In this document: in pieces, positions 2,747-18,132 of the stretch
Position numbering within the stretch: the first letter of the stretch is position 1
Layout: the number at the start of each line of letters is the position of its first letter
NCBI GenBank assembly: GCA_017423025.1
Contig: JAFPGC010000026.1
Location: 1-45,977, forward strand
DNA length: 45,977 bases
Reading direction: 5' to 3'
Source: Bacteroidales bacterium
GTDB taxonomy: Bacteria; Bacteroidota; Bacteroidia; Bacteroidales; UBA932
Notes under the pieces: model-generated
Told to the model about the DNA's origin: nothing
The model's database searches: none
The model's input: only the letters and a program-made list of their open reading frames with translations
Made by a program: the position numbers and the translations under genes

Positions 2747-4192
2747 ATGAAAAGATTTCTAACCGGCATCCTTCTGGTGGCCATTTCTTTAACCGCTGCC
2801 GCTCAGAAAAAGGAGATCACAAAAACCGGCATTAACCTTGGTCCTCTGCCTACCCTTGGTTATAACTCCGATTTAGGTTGGCACTATGGCCTTATGTCGG
2901 ATATCTTCTGGTACGGAGACGGCTCCAAGTACCCCGAATACATATGGAAAGCCAATGTGGAAGCTTCCTGGTATTCCAAGGGAAACTCCGTATATCACGC
3001 CTTCTTTGACAGCAAATATCTCATCCCCGGCGTCCGCATGTCGTTTGATCTGTCCTACTTTGCCAATAAGACAAGTAATTTCTATGGATTTAACGGCGGC
3101 TCCTCACTTTATGTGGAAGCCCTGGACAAGATTACCAATAGTGAAAAGAATAAGAAATACTCCTTCAGCGAGGAGGGTCAGGGCTTTTACCTGATGAAGC
3201 GTAATATCCTTCGTGGTATGGCTCTGTTCCAGGGACAGTTTGGCGAGAGCCACTGGGGCTGGGCGGCCGGTCTTACCTATATGGGTATCAAGACGGGCCA
3301 TGCAGAGAACAAAGGTCTGGCCGGTTATGACAAGAAAACCAAGCACCCCGCCACCGACCTTTCTCTCTATGACCTATATGTCAAGCATGGACTTATTCCC
3401 AAGGCCGAAGAGTTTGGCGGTAAGCATCTGGAAGCCAAGGTGGGCGTGGTGTTTGATACCCGAAACCACGAGAATAATCCCAGCAAAGGTACCAACCTGG
3501 AAATTTGCCTGTATGGCTCTCCGGATATCCTGAACGGACGTGCGAAGGCCGACCGCACCAACTATCTCAAGCTGGCCGTTCACTTCAAGCAGTTCGCTAC
3601 CCTGGTACCCGACAAACTGGTCTTTGGCGGCCACCTGGCCTTCCAGGGACTCCTTTGGGGCCGTACTCCTTCCTATATGATGCAGACCCTCCAGGTCATC
3701 AATTTCAAACAGCTTTGTCCGGAAGGCCTGGGCTCTGCCACTACCATCCGTGGTTCGCTGTTTAACCGCCTGCAGGGTGAGAGTTTCGCCTGGACCAACC
3801 TGGAACTCCGCTGGAGCTTTGCCCGTTTCACCCTCTTTAACCAGAACTTCATCCTGGCCACCAACCCGTTCTTCGATATGGGTATGATTCTGAAACCTTA
3901 TACCCCGCCTACGGCCGACTACAGCGGTTTTGCTGCCGATAATACGGTGGTAAACAGAATCTCCGGCAAGCTTGACAACAGCTCGGTGCAATATGTTGCC
4001 AGCGACTTCTACAAGGAGGAAAAGCAGAAGCTGCACATGGGCGCCGGTATCGGCCTTCACGTTATCATGAACCAGAACTTCAACGTCAACTTTGAATTTG
4101 GTAAGATCTTCTTCGACGGCAAGAAGTTCGGCTGGAAGAATAACGACGGCGCCAGCCTGGGCATCAACATCGGCCTGAACTACATTTTCTAA
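2747..4192 (+). CDS. Omp85/BamA-like outer-membrane beta-barrel without POTRA domains
   Basis: A 481-residue secreted protein with a Sec signal peptide (residues 1-19, cleavage after AAA in LTAAAQ). The mature protein alternates hydrophobic and polar residues throughout and ends LNIGLNYIF, a typical barrel C-terminus with terminal Phe. A block near residues 330-350 (TTIRGSLFNRLQGES) resembles the conserved (V/I)RG segment of the Omp85 L6 loop. Length and the lack of N-terminal repeats argue against BamA itself. It matches the shorter Bacteroidetes proteins annotated as BamA/TamA-family surface antigen. The gene is one base apart from the alpha/beta-hydrolase lipoprotein gene, so both are probably in one operon with glpK. 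A role in uptake or export of a lipid or glycerol ester would be speculation. Confidence 0.7.
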   Translation: MKRFLTGILLVAISLTAAAQKKEITKTGINLGPLPTLGYNSDLGWHYGLMSDIFWYGDGSKYPEYIWKANVEASWYSKGNSVYHAFFDSKYLIPGVRMSFDLSYFANKTSNFYGFNGGSSLYVEALDKITNSEKNKKYSFSEEGQGFYLMKRNILRGMALFQGQFGESHWGWAAGLTYMGIKTGHAENKGLAGYDKKTKHPATDLSLYDLYVKHGLIPKAEEFGGKHLEAKVGVVFDTRNHENNPSKGTNLEICLYGSPDILNGRAKADRTNYLKLAVHFKQFATLVPDKLVFGGHLAFQGLLWGRTPSYMMQTLQVINFKQLCPEGLGSATTIRGSLFNRLQGESFAWTNLELRWSFARFTLFNQNFILATNPFFDMGMILKPYTPPTADYSGFAADNTVVNRISGKLDNSSVQYVASDFYKEEKQKLHMGAGIGLHVIMNQNFNVNFEFGKIFFDGKKFGWKNNDGASLGINIGLNYIF

Positions 4193-4193
4193 T

Positions 4194-5171
4194 ATGAAAA
4201 AACTAGCGTCCATCCTGGCCATTGCTTTATCGGCCCTGCTTCTTAATTCCTGTATGGTGGGCCGGGTTGCGACCAAGTATGCCCTCAGCCCCAAGAGGCA
4301 TGGCATTGCCGATATTGAGCGTACCCGCCATAAGGCCGATTCCCTCCGGCCCGGCAGTACCCACTGGTACGACAGCCTGAAGGCCATAGGCGTGATGCGG
4401 GATACCTTTATAGTGGGGTACAACAATTACCGCGTTCACGCTGTCTATGCCCCTGCCGCCAAGCCCGGGGAGGCCAACGGAACGGCCATGATCATTCACG
4501 GTTACGGAGACAACCACCTGGTTTTCCTGTATCTGGGCCGAATGTACCGGGATGAACTCAATTACAACATCGTGATGCCGGACCTTCAGTACCACGGGTA
4601 TTCCGAGGGCCCCTCCATCCAGATGGGTTGGCTGGACCGCTATGACATCCTGAACTGGATCAATGTGGCCCAGGGCATCTATCACAGTGATTTTATGGTG
4701 TTGCACGGCGTGTCCATGGGTGCCGCTACGGTCATGTTTACCAGTGGCGAACCCCAGCCTGATTACGTGAGGTGCTTTGTGGAGGACTGCGGTTACAACA
4801 GCGTACGCGGCCAGTTCGCCAAGAACCTGAAGGACATCGGCCCCATTCCAACCGATATTCTCAACAGCGCCAGCATTGTGACAAACCGTAAGTTTGGCTG
4901 GCGCTTCGAGGAGGCAGACTGCTCCAAGCAGCTGGCCAAGTGCAAAAAGCCCATGCTCTTCATCCACGGAGATGCCGACGATTTCGTGGCTTTCGAGGAC
5001 ATATGGAAGAACTACAACGCCAAGACCCAGGGCTACAAGGAATACTGGGTGGCCGAAGGGGCCGTGCATGCCAACTCTTATGCCCGATATCCCGAGGAGT
5101 ATACCCGGCGGGTATCCAATTTCCTGCAAACCGTACATAAAATGATAGAAGATGGCACCTATGAACAATAA
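4194..5171 (+). CDS. alpha/beta-hydrolase lipoprotein
   Basis: A 325-residue protein with a lipoprotein signal ending LLLNSC (Cys20). The hydrolase fold shows an oxyanion HG motif (IIHGYGD, about 101-106), a nucleophile elbow GVSMG (Ser174), an acid residue in HGDADDFV (probably Asp262), and the general base His292 in AVHANSY. All three catalytic residues are therefore present. The family covers esterases, lipases and acyl-aminoacyl peptidases. Its place directly before glpK, with an 11-nt overlap, makes a glycerol-ester substrate attractive but unproven. The preceding barrel gene ends one base before this ATG. Confidence 0.85.
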
Positions 5172-6642: not shown

Positions 6643-6765
6643 TTTCTGAGGTAGTACCTCCGGAACCCCCTACGCTTCGCTTCGGCCCCCCCACCGCTTC
6701 GCGGCGGGTCCCCCCCCTCTAATAGCCGAGGGTGGCTAAGGCTTCCGGAGGTACTACCTCAGAAA
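6643..6765. repeat. palindromic intergenic element, copy A
   Basis: The spacer between glpK and glpF is almost entirely one large palindrome. Arms at 6643-6665 and 6743-6765 are perfect 23-bp inverted repeats, and the left arm begins directly after the glpK stop codon. Each arm contains its own small palindrome (GAGGTAGTACCTC). The 77-nt loop holds CGCTTCGCTTCGG, a hairpin CCCaCCGC-TTC-GCGGcGGG (6690-6708), C-rich runs, and a second hairpin TAGCC-GAGGGT-GGCTA (6723-6738). The loop is related to copies B and C, while the arms are not. It lies between two co-directional genes. No ORF is present. Confidence 0.85.
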
Positions 6766-6785
6766 ACCAATAAGCTTAAACGATT

Positions 6786-7523
6786 ATGAATCCTTACGTT
6801 TTTGAGTTTTTGGGCACTCTGGTGCTCGTGCTGCTGGGTGACGGCGTATGCGCCGCCTGCTCTTTGAACAAATCCAAAGCTCAGGGCGGCGGATGGGTGG
6901 TGATTGCCCTGGCCTGGGGCTTTGCCGTGATGATGGGCGTGCTCATTGCCGGCCCTGTTTCCGGTGCGCACTTGAACCCGGCCGTTACTTTGGGCCTGGC
7001 CATTGCCGGCAAGTTTGCCTGGAGCCAGGTGCTGGGTTACTGCGTGGCCCAGATGCTGGGCGGCTTCGTGGGTGCTGTTCTGGTATGGATTTTCTACAAG
7101 GACCACTATAAGGCTACGGCTGATCAGCCGGATACCATGCTGGGCACCTTCTGCACAATGCCGGCTATCTGGAACCCATGGCGCAACTTCCTCTCCGAGG
7201 TCATTGCCACCTGCCTGCTGGTGTTTGTGATCCTTGCCATCGGCTTTGAAGGCAATGCCTTCCAGGTGGGCTCCGTGATGGCTTCTCCGGGCGCCATCGG
7301 TTCTCTTCCTGTGACCTGCCTCATCATGGCGCTGGGTATGTCCCTGGGCGGAACCACCGGTTATGCCATGAACCCGGCGCGTGACCTTTCGCCGCGCTGC
7401 GCCCATGCCATTCTGCCCATCGCCGGCAAGCGCGACAGCGGCTGGAACTACAGCTGGGTTCCCGTTGCTGGCCCCATGGTAGGTGCCTGCCTCGCTGCGG
7501 GGCTCTTCCTGCTGGTTTTCTAA
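6786..7523 (+). CDS. glpF: glycerol facilitator (aquaglyceroporin)
   Basis: A 245-residue MIP-family channel for passive glycerol entry. Both half-helix motifs are present: HLNPAVT (NPA at residues 64-66) and MNPARDLSPR near residue 195. The Asp after the second NPA-Arg is the usual mark of glyceroporins rather than water-only aquaporins. About six membrane segments are visible. It follows glpK on the same strand, so imported glycerol can be trapped at once as G3P. A strong hairpin after the stop probably ends the transcript. Confidence 0.95.
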   Translation: MNPYVFEFLGTLVLVLLGDGVCAACSLNKSKAQGGGWVVIALAWGFAVMMGVLIAGPVSGAHLNPAVTLGLAIAGKFAWSQVLGYCVAQMLGGFVGAVLVWIFYKDHYKATADQPDTMLGTFCTMPAIWNPWRNFLSEVIATCLLVFVILAIGFEGNAFQVGSVMASPGAIGSLPVTCLIMALGMSLGGTTGYAMNPARDLSPRCAHAILPIAGKRDSGWNYSWVPVAGPMVGACLAAGLFLLVF

Positions 7524-7588
7524 TTCCATAGTGCTATCGGCTTTCATTGGCCGTGAAATGGAACTGGCTCACAATGAGCTAATTATAA

Positions 7589-7621
7589 AAATTCTCCTCG
7601 GAAAAACTCCGAGGAGAATTT
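7589..7621. terminator. bidirectional hairpin terminator between glpF and glpT
   Basis: A perfect 14-bp stem (7589-7602 with 7608-7621; core TCTCCTCGGA) and a 5-nt loop lie between the 3' ends of convergent glpF and glpT. The sequence is A-rich on the left and T-containing on the right, so it can serve both strands, though neither side has a long U-tract. Confidence 0.8.
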
Positions 7622-7664
7622 GTGTTAATTACTGATAATCAGTTAGTTGTATTTCACGGAAATC

Positions 7665-9038
7665 TTAGCCACGGCGTTCTTCCTTCAGGGTGAGGCCCAT
7701 GAAGAAGATGGCCAGGAGGCAGGCGACCAGCAGGAGGATGAAGGTCCAGCTCCAGCCGAAGTTCTGGGCTACCCAGCCTATGACCGTATTGGCCAGGATG
7801 AACGTGCCCAGGAAGTAGCCGAAGAAGCCGGTGAGGCCTGCGGCCGTGCCGGCGGCATTCTTGGGAGCCAGGTCCAGGGCCTGCACGCCAATGAGCATCA
7901 CGGGGCCATAGATGAAGAAGCCGATGCCGATGAGGCAGATGATGACCATGGTGAGGTTATCGATGTACAGCCAGTAGAGTATAATGAAAATGAGCACCAG
8001 GGCCATGAAGAGGATGGTGGGCAGGGCACGCTTGCCGTGGAAGAGTTTGTCGGATAGCCAGCCGCAGAGCAGGGTGCCCGGGATGGCGGCGAACTCGTAG
8101 GCGAAGTAGGCCCAGCCGGCGCTCTTGAGGTCGATTCCCTTCTCCGTGAGGATGGTGGGAGCCCAGTCCAGGCAGCCGTAGCGAACCATATAGACAAAGG
8201 CATTGGAAAGGGCGATGAACCACAGGAACTTGTTGTTCAGTACGTACTGGAAGAAGATTTCCTTGGTGGTAAGGGTCTGTTCGTGCTTGTGGGAATAGTT
8301 CTTGGGATAGTCGTTGCGCCAGGCTTCCACGGAAGGGAGGCCGCAGGACTGCGGTGTATCCCGCAGCAGGACGTAGGCCAGCAGGGCAATGAAGATGGCC
8401 ACGGCTGCAGGGAAGGCAAAGGTGCCGATGAGGAAGTAAAGCTCGGTATGGGCACCGTAGAACCAGCTGCCGAACCATGCAGCGCCGTAAGTGGCCATGG
8501 GGCCCACCAGGGCGCCGCCCACGTTATGGGCGCAGTTCCAGACACTCATCCAGGTGCCGCGTTCTCCCGGTGAGAACCAGTGCGTCATCACGCGGCCGCA
8601 AGGAGGCCAGCCCATGCCGTTGAACCAACCCACGGCGGCGTTGAGTACGCCCATCACCAGAATGGCCAGGGCTTTGTGATCGGCCCCGATAAACTGGATG
8701 GGTACAATCATGAAGCACATGGAAATGGCCGTGAGGATAAGGCCCAGCGGCAGGAATACGCGGGCGTTGGAACGGTCCGATACGCTGCCCATCAGGAATT
8801 TGGACAGGGCATAGGCCGCCGCATTCAGGCCAAGGACAAAGCCCAGTTCGGTCTTGTCGAAGCCCAGCGGCTCCATGGCCGGAATAGCCATGGAAAGGTT
8901 TTTACGGACCAGATAAAAGCCTGCGTAGCCAATGAAGGCTCCCAGAAATACCTGCAGGCGCAGGCGCTTGTACTTGGCATCGGCCTCTGGCCCCGTTTCA
9001 ATGGGCAGATGAGCCGGTTGTTGCAAAAACTTTAGCAT
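7665..9038 (-). CDS. glpT: glycerol-3-phosphate:phosphate antiporter
   Basis: A 457-residue MFS transporter of the organophosphate:phosphate antiporter family, with about 12 membrane segments. GFYLVRKN near residue 40 carries the Arg matching the substrate-binding Arg45 of E. coli GlpT. The block GMGWPPCGRVMTHWFS followed by WNCAHNVGG is nearly the GlpT signature. The start is the ATG at 9038 (MLKFLQQPAHLPIETG). The longer frame to 9104 would run through repeat element B. It ends the glpA-glpB-glpC-glpT run and is set off from glpC by that element. It imports G3P as substrate for GlpABC. Confidence 0.95.
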   Translation of the reverse strand: MLKFLQQPAHLPIETGPEADAKYKRLRLQVFLGAFIGYAGFYLVRKNLSMAIPAMEPLGFDKTELGFVLGLNAAAYALSKFLMGSVSDRSNARVFLPLGLILTAISMCFMIVPIQFIGADHKALAILVMGVLNAAVGWFNGMGWPPCGRVMTHWFSPGERGTWMSVWNCAHNVGGALVGPMATYGAAWFGSWFYGAHTELYFLIGTFAFPAAVAIFIALLAYVLLRDTPQSCGLPSVEAWRNDYPKNYSHKHEQTLTTKEIFFQYVLNNKFLWFIALSNAFVYMVRYGCLDWAPTILTEKGIDLKSAGWAYFAYEFAAIPGTLLCGWLSDKLFHGKRALPTILFMALVLIFIILYWLYIDNLTMVIICLIGIGFFIYGPVMLIGVQALDLAPKNAAGTAAGLTGFFGYFLGTFILANTVIGWVAQNFGWSWTFILLLVACLLAIFFMGLTLKEERRG

Positions 9039-9053
9039 ATTAATAACGTGTTT

Positions 9054-9229
9054 GATTAAGGTATAGGGGTTCAAAACCCCTCCGCTTCGCTTCGGCCCTC
9101 CCACCCCTGCGGGGCGGGCCCCTCCCGGGAAACCGGGAAAAAACTATACCCCCTATGGCCCCCCAGGGGGCACTTGCCCTTACGGGGTAGCCGAGGGTGG
9201 CTAAGGTTTTGAAGCCCTATACCTTAATC
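9054..9229. repeat. palindromic intergenic element, copy B
   Basis: Arms at 9054-9078 and 9205-9229 form a 25-bp inverted repeat with one mismatch (position 9069). The right arm contains the last Asp codon and the stop codon of glpC (minus strand, stop 9226-9224). The left arm ends 16 nt from the glpT start codon. The 126-nt loop contains CCGCTTCGCTTCGG (9082-9095), hairpin CCCaCCCC-TGC-GGGGcGGG (9100-9118), extra hairpins CCCGG-GAAA-CCGGG and GGGG/CCCC runs, then TAGCC-GAGGGT-GGCTA (9188-9203) as in copy A. Genes here are on the minus strand, so the core runs opposite to transcription, unlike A and C. Confidence 0.85.
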
Positions 9230-10450
9230 TTTACCATTATCTGATATAGCTTCGGCCAGGATGGAGATGGGGTTCTCCACTTTGTAGCCGGTGGACATTT
9301 CTATTTGCCATTTGCAGGTTTCGCAGTCGCAGGCCACCACGTCCGGGTTCACGGCGCGGATCTGGTCGAAAAGGGGCGCTCCTATGGCCTGGGAGTTGGC
9401 GTAATTCTCTTTCTTGAAGCCGTAGGTTCCGGCCATGCCGCAGCAGGTCTGCTCCAGGGGAGTGAACTCCACACCGGGAATCATCTGGAGGAGTCTCTGG
9501 GAGAAGATACCCCATCCCAGGCGCGCCATGTGGCAGGGCGTGTGGTAGGCGATGCGTTTGTGGAAATCGTTCCGGAAGGGGAGTGTGGCGCCCTGCTCCA
9601 GCTTTTCGCAGATGAAGCGGGTGGCCATGAGGACCGAGTCGCGGACGGCGGCGTTGTCCACCTCCAGCAGGGACGGATACTCGTCCCGGATGGTGAGCGT
9701 GCAGGTGGAGGAGGTGGTTACCACCTTGAGGCCGCTTTCCACGGCCTTGCCCAGGCTTTCCACATTGTGCAGGGCCTTCTTCCGGGCCTGGGCCGACTGG
9801 CCGTTCACAATGAGGGCGATGCCGCAGCACTGCTCCTTCTCCAGAAGCTGGACGCCTACGCCCATCGCATTGAGCACCTTCACCAGGTCCTTGCCCAGCT
9901 GAGGGTAGTTGTAATTGACATAGCAGCCGTGGTAATAGGCAACCTGTTCCGGGAAAGCCGCCTGCTCTTTCTTGCGGCGCTTGAGCCAGCCCTCGAAGCC
10001 TCTGGCGGAGTACTCCGGGAAAGTGCGGTGCCGGTCAATGCGCAGCGTGACATCCATGGCGGTACGGGTAAGCTGCTGGCGGGTGGCGAAGTTCACTATA
10101 GGAGCCACCGGGCGGGCCAGTTTGCCCATTACGTCCGTGCTGGCCAGCAGGTAGTCTCTCACCTTGGGCGGCGTGCGCTCATATCGGATGCGGGCCGATT
10201 GGATAAGATCGGCCACCTTTACCTCCGAGGGACAGTACACCTCGCAGCGCTTGCAGTTGAGGCAGTACTTGAGGGCTGCGTCAAAGAAGCCCGGGTCCCG
10301 CAGACGGAGGCGTTCCCCGTCCGGTCCGGCCTGCTTGGGGCCGGGATACAGCGGGTTCACCTGCATGACCGGGCAGTAGGCCGTGCAGATGGTGCATTTG
10401 GTGCACTCCTCGAAGTTATACTCACTCTGTGTATACTCCTGGTACTGCAT
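9224..10450 (-). CDS. glpC: anaerobic glycerol-3-phosphate dehydrogenase subunit C
   Basis: A 408-residue Fe-S subunit that links GlpAB to the membrane quinone pool. Two 4Fe-4S ferredoxin motifs are at Cys16/19/22/26 (CTKCTICTAYCPV) and Cys63/66/69/73 (CLNCKRCEVYCP). Two CCG domains follow (CCGIAL near residue 215 and CCGMAGTYGF near 341), as in GlpC and HdrB-type proteins. The first 29 nt overlap the end of glpB, which suggests translational coupling. Its stop codon lies inside the arm of repeat element B. Confidence 0.95.
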   Translation of the reverse strand: MQYQEYTQSEYNFEECTKCTICTAYCPVMQVNPLYPGPKQAGPDGERLRLRDPGFFDAALKYCLNCKRCEVYCPSEVKVADLIQSARIRYERTPPKVRDYLLASTDVMGKLARPVAPIVNFATRQQLTRTAMDVTLRIDRHRTFPEYSARGFEGWLKRRKKEQAAFPEQVAYYHGCYVNYNYPQLGKDLVKVLNAMGVGVQLLEKEQCCGIALIVNGQSAQARKKALHNVESLGKAVESGLKVVTTSSTCTLTIRDEYPSLLEVDNAAVRDSVLMATRFICEKLEQGATLPFRNDFHKRIAYHTPCHMARLGWGIFSQRLLQMIPGVEFTPLEQTCCGMAGTYGFKKENYANSQAIGAPLFDQIRAVNPDVVACDCETCKWQIEMSTGYKVENPISILAEAISDNGKD

Positions 10451-11573
10451 GAGGTTCGGTAATTAGGTTAGCTACCTTGAGGGCACTCCGGATGGCGAGG
10501 CCGGCTCCGCAGCCCAGTTCGGGATGGGTTTCTCCCAGGATGGAACCTATGACATAGAGGTTCTTGACGGGAACGCCTTTGCGGCTGGGGCGGAAGTCGG
10601 CGTCGGTCTTGACACCGAAGCCCATGTAAGGTTGGTGGTTAGTGAAGGAGGGATCGTACCAGGCGTTACGGTCCGTATTGTAGTCCATGTCCAGTTCGAA
10701 CAGGGGCTCGTATACTTTGAAAGGATTGCTGTCGAGGCCCTTGGAGAAGAAACCTCCGCTGGCCAGAATGAAGTTATCGGCCTCCAGGTAATGGCGGTCC
10801 AGATGCTTGGTTACCACATTCTGAACCGTATCCTCATAGACATGGGCGCCCGTAACGCGGTCTCCCATGAGATAGGTGCCGCCCAACACCTCGTAGCGCT
10901 TCTTGAGCAGCATCTGGGTGCGGATGCCGGGCACGGAGGGAGGCAGGGTGGCGGCAAAGACCACGCGGGCAGGGATGCCCTGGCGGATGCGCTCGGGAAT
11001 GGTGGCGTCGTTGAGGCCGAAGACCTGCGGCAGGATGACGGTGTCCTCGTCCTTGAGGAGCACGCGCACCTCCTGCACCACCTTGTCCCACACCTCGTCC
11101 ATCTTGCGGGCGATCTGCACGGCGCGCATCTGGTTGGGGCCCAGTTCCGGCTGGGCAAGGTCTCCCAGGTTGAGGAAGCGGATGCGGCATTCCATGCCCT
11201 GCTTCTCCAGTCCCTCGGCCAGGAAGGAGGAGAAGAAGTCGTGGTAGGCCATAAAGTTGATAATGAGCACCTTCCTTCCAAACTTCGGGCTGGGGAAGAG
11301 GCTCACGTCCTCCAGCGCCAGGGCCGATTCCTTGAAGGTGCCCATGGGCATGAGGCGTACGCCCGGCGAGTAGTGCAGCCGGATGCCGGCCTCGGAAAAG
11401 AGGGACTGAATCTCCGGGGTGGGTTCCTGGATGGATTCGAAGCAGCCGGAGAAGAAGTACAGGGCATTCTGTCCGGTACTTACGATGGCGGTGTTTTTCC
11501 CGGCCTTCTGCAGGCGGATGCCCGCGGTGAGGCCGGCCAGGCCGCCTCCAATTATGACAGTATCGTACCTCAT
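10422..11573 (-). CDS. glpB: anaerobic glycerol-3-phosphate dehydrogenase subunit B
   Basis: A 383-residue flavoprotein of the GlpB type. The N-terminal dinucleotide-binding motif is VIIGGGLAGLTAG (residues 6-18), followed by a basic loop. A second conserved block near the C-terminus (YVIGSILGETHPELGCGAGLA) closes the FAD site. In E. coli GlpB pairs with GlpA to oxidise G3P and passes electrons to GlpC. The ATG overlaps the glpA stop by 4 nt and the 3' end overlaps glpC by 29 nt, giving a tightly packed glpABC operon. Confidence 0.95.
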   Translation of the reverse strand: MRYDTVIIGGGLAGLTAGIRLQKAGKNTAIVSTGQNALYFFSGCFESIQEPTPEIQSLFSEAGIRLHYSPGVRLMPMGTFKESALALEDVSLFPSPKFGRKVLIINFMAYHDFFSSFLAEGLEKQGMECRIRFLNLGDLAQPELGPNQMRAVQIARKMDEVWDKVVQEVRVLLKDEDTVILPQVFGLNDATIPERIRQGIPARVVFAATLPPSVPGIRTQMLLKKRYEVLGGTYLMGDRVTGAHVYEDTVQNVVTKHLDRHYLEADNFILASGGFFSKGLDSNPFKVYEPLFELDMDYNTDRNAWYDPSFTNHQPYMGFGVKTDADFRPSRKGVPVKNLYVIGSILGETHPELGCGAGLAIRSALKVANLITEPHAVPGVYTE

Positions 11574-13165
11574 ATGCCCAGCACGTGTTTATAAACCCAT
11601 TGTGTATATTCGGCCTCGCGGAGGGTTTCTCCCCAGCCGATGGGGAAGTTGCCCTTCCAGCGCTCCTGGAGGAAGGAGTCGATGTCTTCCCTTTCTTTCT
11701 CTATGCAGCCGTGGGCCTTGGCCAGGAGGCCGGCGGCACGGCAGGCGCAGAACTCACCCTGGCAGGTGCCCATGCCCACGCGGGTGCGGCGGCGAAGGTC
11801 CGTGAGGGTGCTGGCTTCCAGGCGTTCGATAGCCAAATTGATCTCACCCATGGAAACCTGCTCGCACTCGCAGATGAGGGCTTCGTCGCGATGGTCCGTA
11901 CTGCGCATGCGGGAAACGCGGGTGCCCATGCGGGAGGCAGCCACTTTCTGGGCCGTGGTGGGATTCTCCCAAATCTTCTTGGCCACTTCCTCGTAGGAAC
12001 CCTCTTCCGAGCCTGGAAGGGGAGTGGTGGCGGTTTCGCAGGCTTTGTCCACGCCCAGCTTCTTGCACACCAGGTCGGTGGCCATTTCGGCCATCAGGCG
12101 GTAACTGGTGAGCTTGCCGCCGGTGATGGTGATGAGCCCCTTGACCCCGTCGCGGACCTCGTGGTCCAGGCAGACGATGCCGCGGGAGATGTTGCGGCCC
12201 GAAGGGTCGTCATCGGCACTTACAAGCGGGCGTACGCCGGCATAGGCGCGGAGGATGCGGGTGGATGCGAGCCTCGGGGCCAGTTTCATGCCTTCCGTGA
12301 TGAGGAGGGTGACCTCGTCGGGTGTGACGGCCACATTGCGGCACTCTTCCAGCGGGATGCGGGAAGAGGTGGTACCCACGATGCAGACGGTGTCTCCGGG
12401 AACCAGAATATCGGCATTGGAGGGCTTGCGGCAGCGGTTGATGACCATGTTGTTCACGCGGTGGGCGAAGATGAGGAGGGAGCCCTTGGCGGGGAACATG
12501 CCCACCTTGACCCCGGCTATCTGGGCTAGTTCCTGACCCCAGACGCCGCCGGCATTCACTACGATGGGGGCGTAGAATTCCACATCTTCCCCGGTATTGC
12601 GGTTGTGGGTGCGGATGCCCTTGACGGTGTCTCCTTCCCTGATGATGCCCGTCACTTCCGTCTGCAGGCGCACCTGGCCGCCGTGAAGTTTGGCGTCCAG
12701 CATGTTGGCGGCGCAAAGGCGGAAGGGATCTACGCTGCAGTCCGGCACGCGCACGGCGCCTATGATGTCCGGATTCACGGACGGCTCCAGGCGGCGGGCC
12801 AGGTCCGGGTCGATGATATCGGCCCTGATACCGGCGTTTCGGCAGGCCTGGACGAAGGTTTTCTGGTAATCCAGGTCGTCTTCGGGAAGGGTTACGAAGA
12901 GGCCGTCGTTCTCGTCAATGCAGTGGGCGGCGACCCGGCGCAGGATCATATTTTCCCGGATGCATTCGGCGGCCGATTCGGGGTCGTTCACGGCGTAGCG
13001 CGCGCCGGAGTGCAGCAGGCCGTGGTTGCGGCCCGTGGCTCCGGTGGCGATGTCCGAGCGGTCTACCAAGAGCGTGCGGAGGCCGCGCATGGCGCAGTCC
13101 CTTTGCGTTCCGGCTCCCGTAATGCCGCCGCCGATGATTATTACATCAAATTCGTTTGCTTTCAT
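11570..13165 (-). CDS. glpA: anaerobic glycerol-3-phosphate dehydrogenase subunit A
   Basis: A 531-residue FAD-dependent dehydrogenase oxidising G3P to dihydroxyacetone phosphate. The N-terminal FAD motif is VIIIGGGITGAGTQRDCAMRG, and ATGATGRNHGLLHSGARYA is the GlpA/GlpD signature. The C-terminal 100 residues carry a BFD-like [2Fe-2S] domain (CECEQ near residue 426, then GTCQGEFCAC near 464), as in E. coli GlpA (542 residues). It starts 7 nt after the stop of the M23 peptidase gene and is probably transcribed from that gene's promoter. In an anaerobe the electrons would go through GlpC to menaquinone. Confidence 0.95.
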   Translation of the reverse strand: MKANEFDVIIIGGGITGAGTQRDCAMRGLRTLLVDRSDIATGATGRNHGLLHSGARYAVNDPESAAECIRENMILRRVAAHCIDENDGLFVTLPEDDLDYQKTFVQACRNAGIRADIIDPDLARRLEPSVNPDIIGAVRVPDCSVDPFRLCAANMLDAKLHGGQVRLQTEVTGIIREGDTVKGIRTHNRNTGEDVEFYAPIVVNAGGVWGQELAQIAGVKVGMFPAKGSLLIFAHRVNNMVINRCRKPSNADILVPGDTVCIVGTTSSRIPLEECRNVAVTPDEVTLLITEGMKLAPRLASTRILRAYAGVRPLVSADDDPSGRNISRGIVCLDHEVRDGVKGLITITGGKLTSYRLMAEMATDLVCKKLGVDKACETATTPLPGSEEGSYEEVAKKIWENPTTAQKVAASRMGTRVSRMRSTDHRDEALICECEQVSMGEINLAIERLEASTLTDLRRRTRVGMGTCQGEFCACRAAGLLAKAHGCIEKEREDIDSFLQERWKGNFPIGWGETLREAEYTQWVYKHVLGI

Positions 13166-13171
13166 TCAAGA

Positions 13172-14398
13172 CTATTTACTACTGACTAACAGGGAATCCA
13201 GCCGCTGGGAGCGCACGCGGTACGCGGAATCCAAGGAGGGCTTGAATTCTTCGCGGATAGGGTCTCCCGAAGGCGATTCCATTTTGAGCGGGTTGATGGG
13301 CGTACCGTTTTTCCACACCCGGAAGTCCAGGTGGGGGCCGGTGGCCGTGCCCGTCATGCCTACATAGCCGATGACCTGGCCCTGGTGCACGCGGTCTCCC
13401 ACTTTGAGGCCGGCGGCGTATTTGGACAGGTGGAGGTAGGCAGTGGTATATACAGAGTTGTGGCGGATTTTGACGGTGTTGCCACCGCCGCCGCCCCAGC
13501 CTTTGCTGATGACGGTGCCGTCTCCGATACTCATCACCGGCGTGCCGGTGGGAGCCGCATAGTCTACCCCGGTGTGGGGGCGGACTGTCCCGTGAACGGG
13601 ATGAAGACGGTGATAGGAGAAGCCGGAAGAGATGCGGGAGAACTTGAGCGGGGCCTTGAGGAAGGCCTTGCGCATGCTTTCACCCTTCTCGTTCCAGTAT
13701 TTGTTGCCATTGTCGTGCTGATCCAGATAAAGGGCGGGATATTCCTTGCCGTCGCGGCTGAATACCGCGTAGGGAACGTCTACAATGCGGAAAACTTCGC
13801 CTTCGCAGACGTCCTGGTTGTACAGCACGCGGAAACGGTCCCCTTCCTGAAGGCCGAAGAAGTCCACCGTCCAGGCGTAGATATCGGCCAGTTCCACTAT
13901 GATCAGGGGAGAGGCGCCGGCGTCCAGCATGTCGTTCCAGAGCGAAGTGTGGATGGTGATATCGGCCACCTTTTCCTGCCTTTCCACGGGTTTGTCGTAG
14001 GTCCAGGCGGCGAGGCTGTCCCGGCACTGGAAGACGATGCTGCGCACGCGATTGTCCTGGTAAACCAGGTACTTCAGCTTGGTGGAATCCGAATAATACG
14101 CCTGCCAGGAATTGCCCGCGCGGAAACGGCGGACGTCGAAGATGCCTTCTGAGGCGTGGATGAGCTGGTAAGTTTCGTCGCCGGAGAGGCCCAGGCTGCC
14201 CATCAGACCCGAGAAAGTGGCTCCCGCCGCCACGGTTCCGTCCACGCGCCGGAAGGAATCCGTGCAGAAACCCAGGGGATACACAGTGTCATTTACCATA
14301 TCCTCGGGTTCGGGAGTGGAAACGCCCCGCCGCTGTCCCCAGTTGCAGGAAAGGGTGAGGACAAGCAGAAGCGCTATGGCGGCAATGTTTCTTTTCAT
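13172..14398 (-). CDS. M23-family peptidase lipoprotein with an altered HxH motif
   Basis: A 408-residue protein with a lipoprotein signal ending LTLSC (Cys18). Residues 40-245 form an N-terminal region of the kind found in MepM/Csd-like endopeptidases. The C-terminal LytM domain has HxxxD (His275, Asp279, in RPHTGVDY) and His323 (AYLHLS). The last motif, normally HxH, reads HLD (His356-Leu-Asp358, in GPHLDFRVWKNG), so one of the usual zinc ligands is Asp. Activity may be altered or lost. It heads the minus-strand run that continues into glpABC, an odd partner for glycerol genes. A TATATTTG box sits 8 nt before its start codon. Confidence 0.85.
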   Translation of the reverse strand: MKRNIAAIALLLVLTLSCNWGQRRGVSTPEPEDMVNDTVYPLGFCTDSFRRVDGTVAAGATFSGLMGSLGLSGDETYQLIHASEGIFDVRRFRAGNSWQAYYSDSTKLKYLVYQDNRVRSIVFQCRDSLAAWTYDKPVERQEKVADITIHTSLWNDMLDAGASPLIIVELADIYAWTVDFFGLQEGDRFRVLYNQDVCEGEVFRIVDVPYAVFSRDGKEYPALYLDQHDNGNKYWNEKGESMRKAFLKAPLKFSRISSGFSYHRLHPVHGTVRPHTGVDYAAPTGTPVMSIGDGTVISKGWGGGGGNTVKIRHNSVYTTAYLHLSKYAAGLKVGDRVHQGQVIGYVGMTGTATGPHLDFRVWKNGTPINPLKMESPSGDPIREEFKPSLDSAYRVRSQRLDSLLVSSK

Positions 14399-14406
14399 TT
14401 AACTTA

Positions 14407-14438
14407 CAAATATAGTCATATTTAGGGGAATGGAGAAA
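14407..14438 (-). promoter_or_regulatory. promoter for the M23-glpABC-glpT run
   Basis: On the minus strand, TATATTTG (14414-14407) is preceded by TTTC (14438-14435) after a 20-nt spacer. This is a near-consensus Bacteroidetes promoter. Only 8 nt separate the -7 box from the ATG at 14398, so the transcript should be leaderless or nearly so. The gap to the divergent hypB shows no equally clear plus-strand box. Confidence 0.65.
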
Positions 14439-14508
14439 TATTTCGCTTTTCGGGGATTTTTTAGTAAATTGCACAAATTAAAAAAAACACTAAAACCATT
14501 AACCGCCT

Positions 14509-15183
14509 ATGGAAGACGGCGTTAAAGTCATTGAGATAAAGAAGAGTATCTTCGAAGACAATGAAAAAGAGGCCGATGCCCTCCGCGCAGAACTCAAGCG
14601 CAAGGGCGTGTATCTGCTTAATCTGATGTCATCCCCCGGCAGCGGAAAAACCACCACCCTCATCCGGCTCGTCAACCTCATCAAGGACCAGGTGCGCGTG
14701 GCGGTGATGGAGGCCGATATCGACAGCGACGTGGATGCCGTCAAAATCAAGGAAGCCACCGGCATCCCCTCCATCCAGCTCCATACCGGAGGCATGTGCC
14801 ACCTGGACGCCGAAATGACGCGCCAGGGGCTGGACAATGTGGCCCTGGACGGCCTGGACCTGGTTATCCTGGAAAACGTTGGCAACCTGGTATGCCCGGC
14901 GGAGTTCGATACCGGATCGGCCCAGAATGCCATGATCCTGTCCGTGCCCGAGGGACACGACAAGCCCCTCAAGTACCCTCTTATGTTCTCCATCTGCAAC
15001 CTGGTGGTTATTAACAAGATGGACGTGATGCCGTACTTTGACTTCGACCTGGATAAGTGCAAGGAATATATCCACATGCGCAATCCCAAGGCCACCGTCA
15101 TTCCCATCTGCGCCAAAACCGGAGAAGGCGTGGATGAACTGGCCCAATGGCTTCTCAATGAAATTAAAAACTGGAAAAACTGA
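14509..15183 (+). CDS. hypB: nickel-insertion GTPase HypB
   Basis: A 224-residue G3E-family GTPase. The P-loop is SSPGSGKTT (41-49). The metal-binding pair is Cys97-His98 in GGMCHLDAEM, with the conserved ENVGNLVCP block following, and NKMD (169-172) is the G4 motif. It lacks the N-terminal CxxCGC and His-rich tail of some HypB proteins. HypB normally works with HypA to put nickel into [NiFe] hydrogenases (or urease). Here it opens an [FeFe]-hydrogenase cluster, and no nickel enzyme is encoded in the window. The next gene starts 6 nt later, so they are co-transcribed. Confidence 0.93.
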   Translation: MEDGVKVIEIKKSIFEDNEKEADALRAELKRKGVYLLNLMSSPGSGKTTTLIRLVNLIKDQVRVAVMEADIDSDVDAVKIKEATGIPSIQLHTGGMCHLDAEMTRQGLDNVALDGLDLVILENVGNLVCPAEFDTGSAQNAMILSVPEGHDKPLKYPLMFSICNLVVINKMDVMPYFDFDLDKCKEYIHMRNPKATVIPICAKTGEGVDELAQWLLNEIKNWKN

Positions 15184-15189
15184 CCGCAT

Positions 15190-18015
15190 ATGCCTGAAAT
15201 GTCCACCAAATTTGTTCCCAAGCATAAAGGGGACAAGAATCCCAATCCCAAGCTTCTGAAATTCGTCCGCCACGTCACGGACCGCGTGCCCGGCAAGATT
15301 AAGATGGATACCGACGCCCCGGAATACTGGGGCCTGGCCTGCATCTTCGAGGACGAAATGGATGCCGTAACGCGCGAGGCCTCCCTGGACCTTCTGCTGG
15401 ACATGCTGCCCGGCAATTTCTTCAAGGTGAGGGAGCACCATTCCTATCAGGAACTGCACGAGTGGAACGCCAAGAAGCATTATACCCCGGATGACAAGAG
15501 CTTTGACGATCTTCTGGATAAGCTGGCCTGGTTCGGCATGCTGGAATACGACTATGGTGACAAGTACACCAAGGAAGGTCCGGTTCCCGGTGCATCCTTC
15601 GAGCGCGAGGCCCGCATTTATTGGGTGCCCATGTTCGTTCCCGGCAGTGCCGAGTACACCAACATGAACGTGGAACTCATGGACAAGCATCCGGAACTGG
15701 CCATGTTCTTCGAGCGTATGACGTTCCTGCCACTGGAGAAGATTACGCCCATGGTCCCTATGGGTGGCAGCGGCATCGGCATGCACGTGATTCCCGTGGA
15801 GAAAGCCATCTCCATGGAGAACGAATCCATTGACATAGAGCATATTTCCTACTGGCTCAAACGCTACGAGGGCCATCTGGGCGTGGGCATCTGCAGCTGC
15901 CGCTACGGCCGCAAGAAGCTGGACGAAGGCTGCGCCGACGACTACCGCGACTGGTGCATCGGAGTGGGCGATATGGCCGATTATCTGGCCGAGACCGGCC
16001 GCGGCCACTACATCACCTACGACGAGGCCATGGCCATCCTCAAGAAGGCCGAGGACCACGGATTCGTGCATCAGGTGACCAATATCGACGGCGAGGGCAA
16101 GATCTTCGCCATCTGCAACTGCAACGTGAAGATTTGCAACGCACTGCGAACCTCGCAGCTCTTCAACACGCCCAATATGAGCCGCAGTGCCTATGTGGCC
16201 GAGGTGGATCCGAAGAACTGCGTGGCATGCGGCCGATGCGTGGAGTACTGCCCCGCCGGAGCCGTGAAGCTGGGCCAGAAACTCTGCACCCAGCACGGCC
16301 CTCAGCAATATCCCAAGCAGGAGCTGCCGGATGCATCGGCCTGGGGTCCTCACAAGTGGAACGAGGATTACCGGGACCGCAACCGCATCAACTGCTACCC
16401 CACGGGCACTTCGCCGTGCAAGACGGCCTGCCCGGCCCACATTGCCGTTCAGGGCTATCTGAAGAAGGCAGCCGAGGGGAAATACACCGAGGCCCTGGAG
16501 CTCATCAAACGGGAGAATCCGCTGCCCGCCGTCTGTGGCCGCGTATGTAACCGCCGCTGCGAGGACGCCTGCACCCGCGGCACCATAGACCGCGCGGTGG
16601 CCATCGACGCCGTGAAGAAATTCATAGCCGAGCAGGACCTCAAGGCCGAAACCCGCTTTGTGCCGGAGGTGAACATCTGCTCCAACGTCCAGGACCGCTG
16701 GGAAGAGAAGATCGCCATCATCGGCGGCGGCCCGGCCGGCCTGTCCTGCGCCTACTACCTGGCCACCATGGGTTACAAGCCCACCCTTTTCGAGCGCAAT
16801 CCGGAACCCGGCGGAATGCTCCGCTACGGCATTCCTTCCTACAAACTGGGCAAGGACGTCCTGAAGGCCGAGATTGATATCATGAAAGAGATTGGCGTGG
16901 ACATCAAGTGTGGCGTGGAAGTGGGTAAGGATGTTACCATTGCCAGCCTGAGGGAAGAAGGTTATAAGGGCTTCTATGTGGCCATCGGCTGCCAGGGCGG
17001 AAGACTGCCCGGCATCCCCGGAGAAACGCTCCCCGGGACCACTACGGCCATTGATTTCCTGCACAAGGCCAACTGCGGAGACGTCAAGGTTTCCGGTAAG
17101 GTGGTGGTGGTTGGCGGCGGCAACGTAGCCATCGACGCCGCCCGTGTGGCCAAGCGCAGCGGCGCTTCCGAAGTCACCATGCTGTCCCTGGAAACCGAGG
17201 ACATCATGCCTGCCTCCCTGGAAGAGCGCGCCGAAGCCCGCGAGGACGGAGTGGTCCTGAATCCCGGCTGGGGCCCGAAGGAAGTGCTGGGCGAGGACAA
17301 GGTCAAGGGCATCGTCTTCAAGAAATGCACCTCCGTCTTCAACGCAGAGCACAAGTTCGCCCCGGAATACGACGAGAACGAGCTCATCACCCTCGAGGCC
17401 GATCTGGTCATCTTCGCCATCGGCCAGACGGTCCTCCTCAAAGACCTTCTCAAGGACACAAAGGTGGAATTCTTCCGCGGAGTATATCCTGTGGCCGATA
17501 AATTAACGTATCAGACGGCCGAGCCGGACATCTTCGTGGGAGGCGACGTCTTCACGGGACCCAAGTTTGCCATCGACGCCATCGCAGCCGGCAAGGAGGC
17601 CGCGGAGAGCCTGCACCGCTTCGTGCAGCACGGACATATGACCATCGGCCGCAACAGGAGAGACTTCATCGAGCTCAACAAGCAGGATATCCTGGTTGAG
17701 TCTTATGATAACGGATCCCGTCAGGATCCGGGAGTCGTGCCGGTGAAAAACGCCTTCCAGGAGTATCAGGGCACGCTGACGGAAGAGCAGGTGCGCAAGG
17801 AGACGGCCCGTTGCCTCTCCTGCGGAGCCTCCGTGGTGGACGAAAACCGCTGCATAGGCTGCGGTGTCTGTACCACCAAGTGCGGCTTCGACGCCATCCA
17901 CCTGCACCGAGTCCATCCGGAAGCCTCTGTAATGCGCACATCCGAAGACAAGTTCTCCGGAATCCTGCCCTACATGGTTAAACGTACAGGTAAAATATTG
18001 TTTAAGAAGAAATAA
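15190..18015 (+). CDS. 941-residue Fe-S / GltD-like flavin oxidoreductase fusion protein
   Basis: A large soluble redox protein with at least four parts. (1) Residues 1 to about 330, with a Cys-rich site made of Cys235/237/248/256 and Cys309/311/316 (ICSC...CNCNVKIC). (2) A ferredoxin-like 4Fe-4S motif at Cys344/347/350/354 (CVACGRCVEYC). (3) A GltD/NfnB-like module: N-terminal Fe-S cysteines (Cys410, 414, 449, 453, 457), FAD motif IIGGGPAGLSC near 512-522, second nucleotide motif VVGGGNVAIDAARVAKRSG near 640-658. (4) A C-terminal ferredoxin motif with Cys875/878 and CIGCGVCTTKC near 888-898. NAD(P)H oxidation or reduction coupled to ferredoxin is the natural reading. Its place between hypB and hypA, upstream of hydBAC, suggests a hydrogenase partner subunit. 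Confidence 0.85.
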   Translation: MPEMSTKFVPKHKGDKNPNPKLLKFVRHVTDRVPGKIKMDTDAPEYWGLACIFEDEMDAVTREASLDLLLDMLPGNFFKVREHHSYQELHEWNAKKHYTPDDKSFDDLLDKLAWFGMLEYDYGDKYTKEGPVPGASFEREARIYWVPMFVPGSAEYTNMNVELMDKHPELAMFFERMTFLPLEKITPMVPMGGSGIGMHVIPVEKAISMENESIDIEHISYWLKRYEGHLGVGICSCRYGRKKLDEGCADDYRDWCIGVGDMADYLAETGRGHYITYDEAMAILKKAEDHGFVHQVTNIDGEGKIFAICNCNVKICNALRTSQLFNTPNMSRSAYVAEVDPKNCVACGRCVEYCPAGAVKLGQKLCTQHGPQQYPKQELPDASAWGPHKWNEDYRDRNRINCYPTGTSPCKTACPAHIAVQGYLKKAAEGKYTEALELIKRENPLPAVCGRVCNRRCEDACTRGTIDRAVAIDAVKKFIAEQDLKAETRFVPEVNICSNVQDRWEEKIAIIGGGPAGLSCAYYLATMGYKPTLFERNPEPGGMLRYGIPSYKLGKDVLKAEIDIMKEIGVDIKCGVEVGKDVTIASLREEGYKGFYVAIGCQGGRLPGIPGETLPGTTTAIDFLHKANCGDVKVSGKVVVVGGGNVAIDAARVAKRSGASEVTMLSLETEDIMPASLEERAEAREDGVVLNPGWGPKEVLGEDKVKGIVFKKCTSVFNAEHKFAPEYDENELITLEADLVIFAIGQTVLLKDLLKDTKVEFFRGVYPVADKLTYQTAEPDIFVGGDVFTGPKFAIDAIAAGKEAAESLHRFVQHGHMTIGRNRRDFIELNKQDILVESYDNGSRQDPGVVPVKNAFQEYQGTLTEEQVRKETARCLSCGASVVDENRCIGCGVCTTKCGFDAIHLHRVHPEASVMRTSEDKFSGILPYMVKRTGKILFKKK

Positions 18016-18132
18016 GATGCATATCCCCAAAACTACGGACCTTCGGTCCTATCCCTCCCACCGCTGCGCGGCGGGCCCCTCCCATTCACGAGACATGGGC
18101 GTCTACGGTTTTGGGGACATACATCTTATTTC
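18009..18132. repeat. palindromic intergenic element, copy C
   Basis: Arms at 18009-18033 and 18108-18132 are 25-bp inverted repeats with two mismatches (at 18020 and 18023). The left arm includes the last codon and the stop TAA (18013-18015) of the fusion gene; the right arm ends 13 nt before the hypA ATG. The 74-nt loop has GGACC-TTC-GGTCC (18037-18049), the shared hairpin CCCaCCGC-TGC-GCGGcGGG (18057-18075), CCCCTCCC, and a hairpin CCCAT..ATGGG (18081-18099) where A and B carry TAGCC..GGCTA. As in A, the core runs with the direction of transcription. No ORF is present. Confidence 0.85.

Follow-up and report, generated by a model that had tools for sequence, protein, structure and literature searches.

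Short palindromic repeats with a common core and mostly private arms in a genus of Bacteroidales

Elements A, B and C in the window

The window analysed here is the whole of contig JAFPGC010000026.1 (45,977 nucleotides, nt) from a Bacteroidales bacterium (assembly GCA_017423025.1, GTDB lineage UBA932). Three small elements named A, B and C lie between neighbouring genes in it (Table 1), and they were the sole matches in a scan for inverted repeats that score 16 or more with arms 30–260 nt apart. Judged by sequence, they belong to a family of small palindromic repeats, non-coding and inserted in a patchy manner, that extends across the genus. In addition, R1, a covariance model of the core built from 81 copies with C among them, gave strong matches in the window to these three only (E-values in Table 1), the next having an E-value of 0.16.

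The arm coordinates and numbers of matching arm positions given by a preliminary description, which was made from the letters of the window, were reproduced at the same places, and the core parts that it listed as common to the three copies are present as described. The three gene pairs are co-directional and the core, in the orientation in which it was read there, runs with transcription in A and C and against it in B, both as claimed. However, the elements do not sit exactly between the genes, as had been said, since B and C each have an arm that includes the stop codon of a neighbour. Gene calls in this study are simple scans for open reading frames. When the strands were folded computationally as single-stranded DNA, the G-rich one was more stable than the C-rich one in A (−43.2 vs. 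−34.6 kcal/mol) and in C (−33.4 vs. −28.0 kcal/mol).

Table 1. Positions of elements A, B and C and of their parts in the window.
Feature	Position	Strand	Remarks
Element A, whole	6643..6765	minus (G-rich folding strand)	Between FGGY (glpK-like) kinase and MIP channel genes; R1 E 5.5e-12
A, left arm	6643..6665		23/23 complementary to right arm
A, right arm	6743..6765		Pairs with left arm, 23/23
A, hairpin P2	6723..6738	minus	TAGCC ACCCTC GGCTA on minus; loop can pair with 6715-6719 (pseudoknot), by homology with family alignment A1
A, pseudoknot partner	6715..6719	minus	GAGGG on minus; from family alignment
Element B, whole	9054..9229	minus	Between MFS transporter and CCG protein genes; R1 E 3.8e-10
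B, left arm	9054..9078		24/25 against right arm
B, right arm	9205..9229		Holds stop codon of minus-strand CCG gene 9224-10450
B, hairpin P2	9188..9203	minus	From sequence
B, GGGAGGGGCCC-hairpin-GGGAGGG core (P3)	9096..9126	minus	From core pattern
Element C, whole	18009..18132	minus	Between 941-aa Pyr_redox fusion gene and hypA; R1 E 1.2e-18
C, left arm	18009..18033		23/25; starts with GAAATAAGATGCA, found uninterrupted at the gene junction of relative G379
C, right arm	18108..18132		Both mismatches to left arm are G-T on minus (G-rich) strand
C, P3 core	18053..18083	minus	From core pattern
C, pseudoknot strand	18081..18085	minus	ATGGG on minus; pairs with CCCAT of P2 loop (18095-18099); from covariation

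Fold of the core

In the orientation of the G-rich strand, the order of parts is arm, hairpin P2, a GAGGG-like strand, AGGGGCCC, hairpin P3, GGGAGGG, the variable hairpin P4 and the second arm. The family alignment A1 comprises 81 of 88 rows, after an odd row (L068) and six alphaproteobacterial rows (L162 twice, L163, L165, L171 and L176) were dropped; genomes and loci are cited by working labels beginning with G and L, respectively. In all 81 rows the P2 loop is paired with the GAGGG-like strand, forming a pseudoknot, and two positions of this pairing covary (GC in 34 rows, UA in 33 and AU in 14; CG in 41, UA in 39 and UG in 1), as does P3. Over the whole structure, 182 cells were changed on both sides against a mean of 53 after shuffling, and the signal was lost when the partner was slid, although two of the five measures (pairs changed and further pair types) were not above the shuffles. 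Given that the copies were mostly gathered by exact core patterns, the invariance of GGGAGGGGCCC and GGGAGGG in A1 is partly due to construction, while the covarying pseudoknot columns were not imposed.

One pair of P3 is G-T in 42 of the 81 rows and in 137 of 220 copies, which on the opposite strand is a C-A mismatch. Therefore, the fold belongs to the G-rich strand, the opposite of the one read in the preliminary description, which had also missed that orientation varies between orthologous sites. The same conserved and covarying fold supports the view taken there that the elements are not plain terminators with unrelated loops. No Rfam family was matched at the gathering threshold in the window or in eight loci.

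Two variants of the fold were observed. In B and in locus L014 of the same genome, which represent a sub-type, P2 is separated from the G-rich core by additional GC-rich sequence (about 60 nt in B, window 9127-9187) that contains more hairpins, and the element at the glpK-glpF junction of G162 (L357, 7999-8173) has an insertion of approximately 40–50 nt in the P3 loop.

Distribution of the family

The family is real and widespread in the genus. In the window's own genome, the core query found 20 places (with certain copies split into pieces), a second pattern found 18, and R1 gave 25 matches; arms were present in 16 of the 17 places first examined there, and 12 of those 16 were perfect over 21–29 bp. 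A covariance-model search, which had been proposed at the outset, was carried out with R1 and matched 108 of the 121 genomes of the genus sample. The proposal of one family with a common core and mostly private, near-perfect arms holds in the genome of the window as well as genus-wide. In the order sample, R1 matched 4 of 294 other genomes (5 of 295 including the window's own), which come from a second genus of the same family and from three further families, and this patchy occurrence outside the genus suggests horizontal spread. Counts per genome are those of the best 39 scored candidates at most in the genus sample and of the best 16 at most in the order sample, and matches of the large searches are in every case those among the matches listed. 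The named organisms among them included Candidatus Cryptobacteroides caccocaballi and two Candidatus Coprenecus. No published description of this repeat family was found in our literature searches.

With respect to possible carriers, the one element compared had no match in phage records, and the plasmid matches were to 12 Azospirillum records only. In viral contigs, 4 of 119 core matches had an arm of at least 12, most of the matches pooled from L073-L152 and L192-L271 being of the alphaproteobacterial type described below, according to their flanking letters. A bias in replication strand was also set aside, orientations looking mixed by eye in two near-complete genomes.

Private and shared arms

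Among the 192 copies with well-scoring arms, 139 were arm-distinct, with a median of 27 aligned pairs, and 3574 of the 3711 arm positions in these 139 copies were Watson-Crick. The early sets for arm pairing held one alphaproteobacterial row (L165), which is absent from the sets used for the flank comparison, the mismatch bias, the orientation table and the paired changes. The arms of A, B and C had been described as devoid of mutual similarity, and arms in the family are indeed mostly private, but as a statement on the whole family this is slightly too strong, since a weak consensus appears in the inner 12 nt or so of 113 distinct arms compared across genomes.

Arms and cores are not always equally alike. 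In same-genome pairs with a core identity of at least 0.97 (n = 83), arm identity was at least 0.9 in 55, between 0.7 and 0.9 in 13 and below 0.7 in 15, and identical cores were found with dissimilar, well-paired arms (L058/L523 in G016 and L575/L576 in G014). The class of high arm identity includes groups of copies that share their arms at mostly different flanks, in G081 (seven copies shown) and in G016 (12 copies, with arms alike though not all identical). Sharing was also seen between an uncultured Bacteroidales metagenome-assembled genome and Candidatus Coprenecus avistercoris, in which the elements L100 5463-5573 and L186 6829-6939 are 98% identical over 111 nt, arms included, and stand in opposite orientation within flanks that are 81% identical over 6.7 kb. 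Copies with the same arm sequence, named beforehand in the preliminary description as a finding that would refute its reading, do occur, and the suggestion that private arms are the element's design fails in view of them, of the weak inner consensus and of the matched-pair drift at orthologous sites; private arms look rather like the outcome of age and paired rewriting.

Two other proposals for the arms were considered. A guide or spacer function was rejected, because in a search with 17 joined arms (16 plus that of C) 33 of the 39 genome matches were the arms themselves, the other six had E-values of at least 1.6, and phage records gave no match. The idea that insertion creates the arms as inverted copies of the target is weakened by the arm-sharing groups and the weak arm consensus.

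In the arm-sharing copies of G081 (L540-L549), the shared arms (GTGCCGTTCTTG...CAAGAACGGCAC) reach a length of about 46 nt and terminate close to GCATTCCGG, several copies being located at contig ends. L186 has a second copy, at 1239-1351, with other arms.

Strand bias of arm mismatches

When the mismatches of the 139 arm-distinct copies were read on the G-rich strand, G-T was more frequent than A-C (53 vs. 18, p = 4e-5) and A-G more frequent than C-T (44 vs. 3, p = 2e-10), and the bias was kept in the innermost 16 pairs (35 vs. 10 and 16 vs. 0, respectively). With 53 of 181 copies excluded as incomplete, 26 elements were oriented with their genes, 39 against them, 47 were between convergent and 16 between divergent genes. 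In the 39 copies in which both genes read the C-rich strand, the counts were 14 G-T vs. 4 A-C and 14 A-G vs. 0 C-T; the corresponding values were 14 vs. 6 and 17 vs. 1 for convergent genes, and 6 vs. 3 and 5 vs. 0 for divergent ones. Since the bias is also present where genes read only the C-rich strand, it follows the core rather than the mRNA. The folded G-rich single strand is presumably the state under selection. Regarding the position of the copies, 65 of the 159 stop-facing edges were at most 15 nt from the stop codon.

Occupancy of orthologous sites

The spacers in relatives were compared, as the preliminary description had proposed, at the junctions that hold A and C. Most relatives lacked the element and had a short spacer at both sites, and three relatives at the C site had palindromes without a core. 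At the glpK-glpF junction, the spacer measured 5–18 nt in 15 of the 21 relatives examined; G162 had an element with other arms, G054, G019 and G085 had other spacers of 38–121 nt, and G093 had none (G140, unresolved). The fusion-hypA search matched 216 of 400 genomes and the junction was read in 69 loci plus the window's own. The spacer was at most 16 nt long in 48 of these 70 loci, and a full element was found in seven, one of them partly masked. The core-less short palindromes had arms of 12 bp in G220, 10 bp in G396 and 8 bp in G019, and G054 had half an element. The outer part of the left arm of C is an exception to the paired rewriting suggested above, since it corresponds to the gene junction that is uninterrupted in the element-free relative G379, and a possible ATGCA(T/C) repeat flanks both sides of the C site in G000 and G220.

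The third site is the junction downstream of the fucose isomerase gene, identified by Pfam, the next gene being one that we take to be a fucose permease. The search matched 161 of 400 genomes, from which 20 regions were taken, and 19 of 21 loci were readable. G000 and G217 have elements of different subtype, G019 has an element in the other orientation and that of G203 is degraded; three loci contain other inserts of 82–84 nt, two are unresolved, and ten, including G230, G334 and G337, have at most 9 nt. No target duplication was evident at this site. A single old insertion at the C and fucose sites is weakened by the differing core subtypes and the empty relatives. Taken together, the survey of the three sites indicates that elements are inserted and lost, and that the same tiny spacers are probably used more than once.

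Small repeats seem to have a hot spot at the fusion-hypA junction. In this regard, variants of a second palindromic repeat (..gaaaactttttctacccc..gggg..gcgaaaaagttttg..) occupy the spacers of L400, L412, L415, L422 and L353, and a third, gtcattctgagcgaagcgaagaatct-like repeat is present in those of L405, L417, L428, L435 and L444.

Orientation and paired changes at orthologous sites

An all-against-all comparison of flanks gave 58 rows, within-genome ones included. Both flanks reached an identity of 78% or more in 21 cross-genome rows, and in 9 of these the two elements point in opposite directions; several rows share a site and are not independent. In the nearest such pair (L422/L461), the flanks are 95.0 and 95.5% identical, the core 99%, and the arms differ at two positions, one near flank being interrupted by other sequence. 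The element is likewise inverted between collinear flanks of 80–90% in L475/L518, L542/L608, L349/L351 and L454/L514. In a set of 16 orthologous pairs picked from the flank-comparison rows, 10 had at least one arm position that was changed on both sides and paired in both members, with up to seven such positions.

Origin of the arms

The explanation that we prefer, tentatively and with slightly less than even confidence, is that arms are rewritten in place by replication template switching after the element has spread as a unit. Each copy would be a folded unit made up of the outer stem formed by the arms, P2 with its pseudoknotting loop, the G-rich GGGAGGGGCCC-P3-GGGAGGG unit and the variable hairpin P4. 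As the arm-sharing groups indicate, the element would spread together with its arms, its mobility presumably depending on a putative enzyme. After insertion, the polymerase would copy one arm onto the other at the palindrome; such copying would keep complementarity, make several paired changes at once, and could capture flanking bases and invert the core, and over time every copy would acquire private, near-perfect arms. Template switching would thus account for such arms, for the paired changes of several bases, for the flank captured in C, for the core-less palindromes and for the changes of orientation.

In the parts of the published work considered here, arm homogenisation and spacer inversion arise together when template switching occurs between inverted repeats (PMC8604942), and stems are created and maintained by it (PMC8794818). 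The repeats of yeast and RNA genes shaped in this way resemble our family, as far as those parts describe them, in their equalised arms and in the changes of spacer orientation; they are single loci with inverted spacers of 2–5 bp, whereas ours is a bacterial repeat family with about 75 nt between the arms and a candidate inversion (PMC8604942; PMC8794818). Regarding the two expected outcomes, paired changes of both arms were present in the 10 of 16 chosen pairs already indicated, and in the nine rows of opposite orientation L422/L461 fits an inversion of the spacer. Given that a template switch equalises the arms, present mismatches should postdate the last event, and a strand bias relative to the core could persist. 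We infer that template switching, rather than re-insertion, is the cause, the matched drift of the arms being explained less well by the latter.

Several results weigh against this explanation. Template switching does not account for the preference for the G-rich strand nor for the spread of the core, and the strand bias needs selection or a strand-specific process beyond template switching alone; at the same time, the bias is slight at best for copies whose two genes read the G-rich strand (G-T 7 vs. A-C 6; A-G 3 vs. C-T 1). Arms free of mismatches and gaps, as aligned here, are found in just 40 of the 139 arm-distinct copies, with 137 of 3711 positions mismatched and 78 gaps; a base pair is broken in one member at one position or more in 7 of the 16 orthologous pairs, and alignment fails for some orthologous arms (18 of 20 positions in L047/L460 and 13 of 25 in L349/L351). 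No individual template-switch event was observed, and the inverted spacers reported in the relevant part of PMC8604942 are of 2–5 bp, shorter ones being favoured, as compared with about 75 nt here. Because the arms are palindromic, an inverted core is indistinguishable from a whole element re-inserted in reverse, and re-insertion explains the differences in orientation and subtype as well or better at some sites. At the fucose site, where the core subtype of G000 differs from that of G217 and G019 and where G230, G334 and G337 are empty, re-insertion is favoured. L100/L186, formerly the clearest core inversion, is no longer counted as such and is better read as two probable recent insertions or transfers; the two copies resemble one another far more than their flanks do, which lowered our confidence in template switching and raised that in re-insertion. 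Finally, neither a target duplication nor a mobilising gene nor a transcript was established.

Re-insertion is the strongest of the alternatives, although we consider it rather unlikely. It supposes a mobile element that travels in the form of a folded single strand, by a logic like that of attC sites or of repetitive extragenic palindromes (REP) and their associated tyrosine transposases (RAYT), and that frequently re-inserts either way round at the same small spacers, its arms being made or changed at insertion by a putative enzyme. The patchy occupation of spacers that most relatives keep short, the identical cores with dissimilar arms, the opposite orientations at one site and different core subtypes at the fucose site, and the strand-specific pairing independent of the genes all agree with it, as do the Y1-transposase genes that a search found in 19 of 25 genomes, and in 11 of the 16 belonging to the genus. 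It fits poorly with arms retained through amplification in some groups, with the weak arm consensus, with the matched-pair drift at orthologous sites and with the 14 Y1 loci that lack a core. In its furthest form, which appears unlikely to us, there would be a new class of bacterial mobile element acting as a folded single strand, in which the pseudoknotted G-rich core would be recognised, the outer stem would be free in sequence but paired, and a putative enzyme would copy the first arm into the second at each move; this core unit would serve elements of both Bacteroidales and Alphaproteobacteria.

Quite improbable, in our opinion, is a structured RNA acting in mRNA (as a stability, attenuation or 3′-end element) with the arms as an ordinary variable P1 stem under compensatory selection. 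It would be in keeping with the covarying pseudoknotted fold, the copies that abut stop codons and G-T wobble as the commonest mismatch. Nevertheless, the orientation relative to genes is mixed and differs at orthologous sites, no Rfam family was matched, and the 39 copies with both genes on the C-rich strand still favour pairing on the G-rich one, which is the reverse of what selection on mRNA predicts.

Insertion into hairpins that already existed, for instance terminators, with the arms as a split target hairpin, is very improbable. Most element-free spacers are too short to hold a hairpin and the arms share a weak inner consensus; the core-less palindromes at the C site of G220, G019 and G396, which speak for it, could equally represent loss of the core or template-switch hairpins, and the remaining points in its favour are the positions directly after stop codons and the many convergent gene pairs. 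A site-specific invertible element (inverton) with a dedicated invertase would explain opposite orientations between collinear flanks, but it is hardly credible given that the arms, its would-be recombination sites, differ in most copies.

Long perfect stems of unrelated sequence are usually read as compensatory selection on RNA, and in this family arms are seen to be rewritten in pairs beside a near-constant core. The core could act as an internal clock for scoring changes of arms and orientation in bacteria, with tens of copies in many genomes. Two questions arise, one being the cause of the pairing that persists on the G-rich strand irrespective of gene direction and the other the agent that mobilises the core. 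For the surprising arms, a known mutational mechanism is plausible, in a setting for which we found no description in the literature.

Relation to known repeats

A miniature inverted-repeat transposable element (MITE) is a short non-coding element with terminal inverted repeats, multiplied within one genome, whose ends are normally conserved between copies. The family described here is likewise short, non-coding, bounded by terminal inverted repeats and multiplied within a genome; unlike in MITEs, the ends are conserved only within some groups (139 of 192 copies being arm-distinct) and no parent transposon was found.

REP, bacterial interspersed mosaic elements and REP doublets forming hairpins (REPIN) are associated with RAYT (Y1) transposases, for which the portion of PMC6006769 considered here describes atypical structures in the Bacteroidetes subclass 2.6. 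Like them, our elements are small, multi-copy, mostly intergenic and hairpin-forming, they fold on one strand, and RAYT-like genes exist in the genus; unlike them, they have a pseudoknotted core and long private arms. Membership of the REP/RAYT system was rejected because no core was found within the stretches of 4–10 kb scanned around 14 of the Y1 loci listed. According to the sections of PMC3733652 used here, REPs tagged with GTAG or CGTC occur in many phyla, the CGTC type without a transposase, some REP dimers lie inside longer palindromes, and outer palindromes fit one consensus per genome; ours have mostly private arms and a different inner fold. No unpaired GTAG or CGTC tag was present at one end of our elements, GTAG being found, by reading, within the P2 stem of many copies.

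A separate REP-like system exists in the same genome as the window, in which a RAYT-like Y1 gene of 291 aa (L373, G000:C19:16000-25000, 3421-4746) is flanked on both sides by palindromes of about 90 nt with TGCGGTAGACGTCCCA.

The core also resembles a GC-rich intergenic repeat of Alphaproteobacteria (Caulobacter, Sphingomonas, Azospirillum and others), which R1 matched with E-values down to 2e-8 and which is frequent in that class among the matches listed. Both have a GAGGGAGGGGCCC-hairpin-TGGGAGGG unit and an adjoining CCCTC/GAGGG pairing. In the alphaproteobacterial repeat, however, no private long arms were seen, its inverted-repeat matches being units in inverted pairs; a CCCTCTCCC hairpin replaces P2, and there is a TGAGGG tail. 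Our literature searches found no published name for it. The occurrence of one central unit in two phyla suggests a repeat family that is widespread and still uncharacterised.

Other repeats observed

Repeats of the alphaproteobacterial type (CCCTCTCCC-loop-GGGAGAGGGAGGGGCCC-hairpin-TGGGAGGGTGAGGG), often in inverted pairs, were observed in L078, L079, L087, L099, L125 and L148. They were also present in viral-contig loci such as L199, L209, L211, L224 and L242, with up to six copies in one 14-kb contig classed as viral. In the window itself, an imperfect inverted repeat of 52 nt (73%) at 7551-7659, located 3′ of the MIP channel gene and between convergent genes, is perhaps a terminator.

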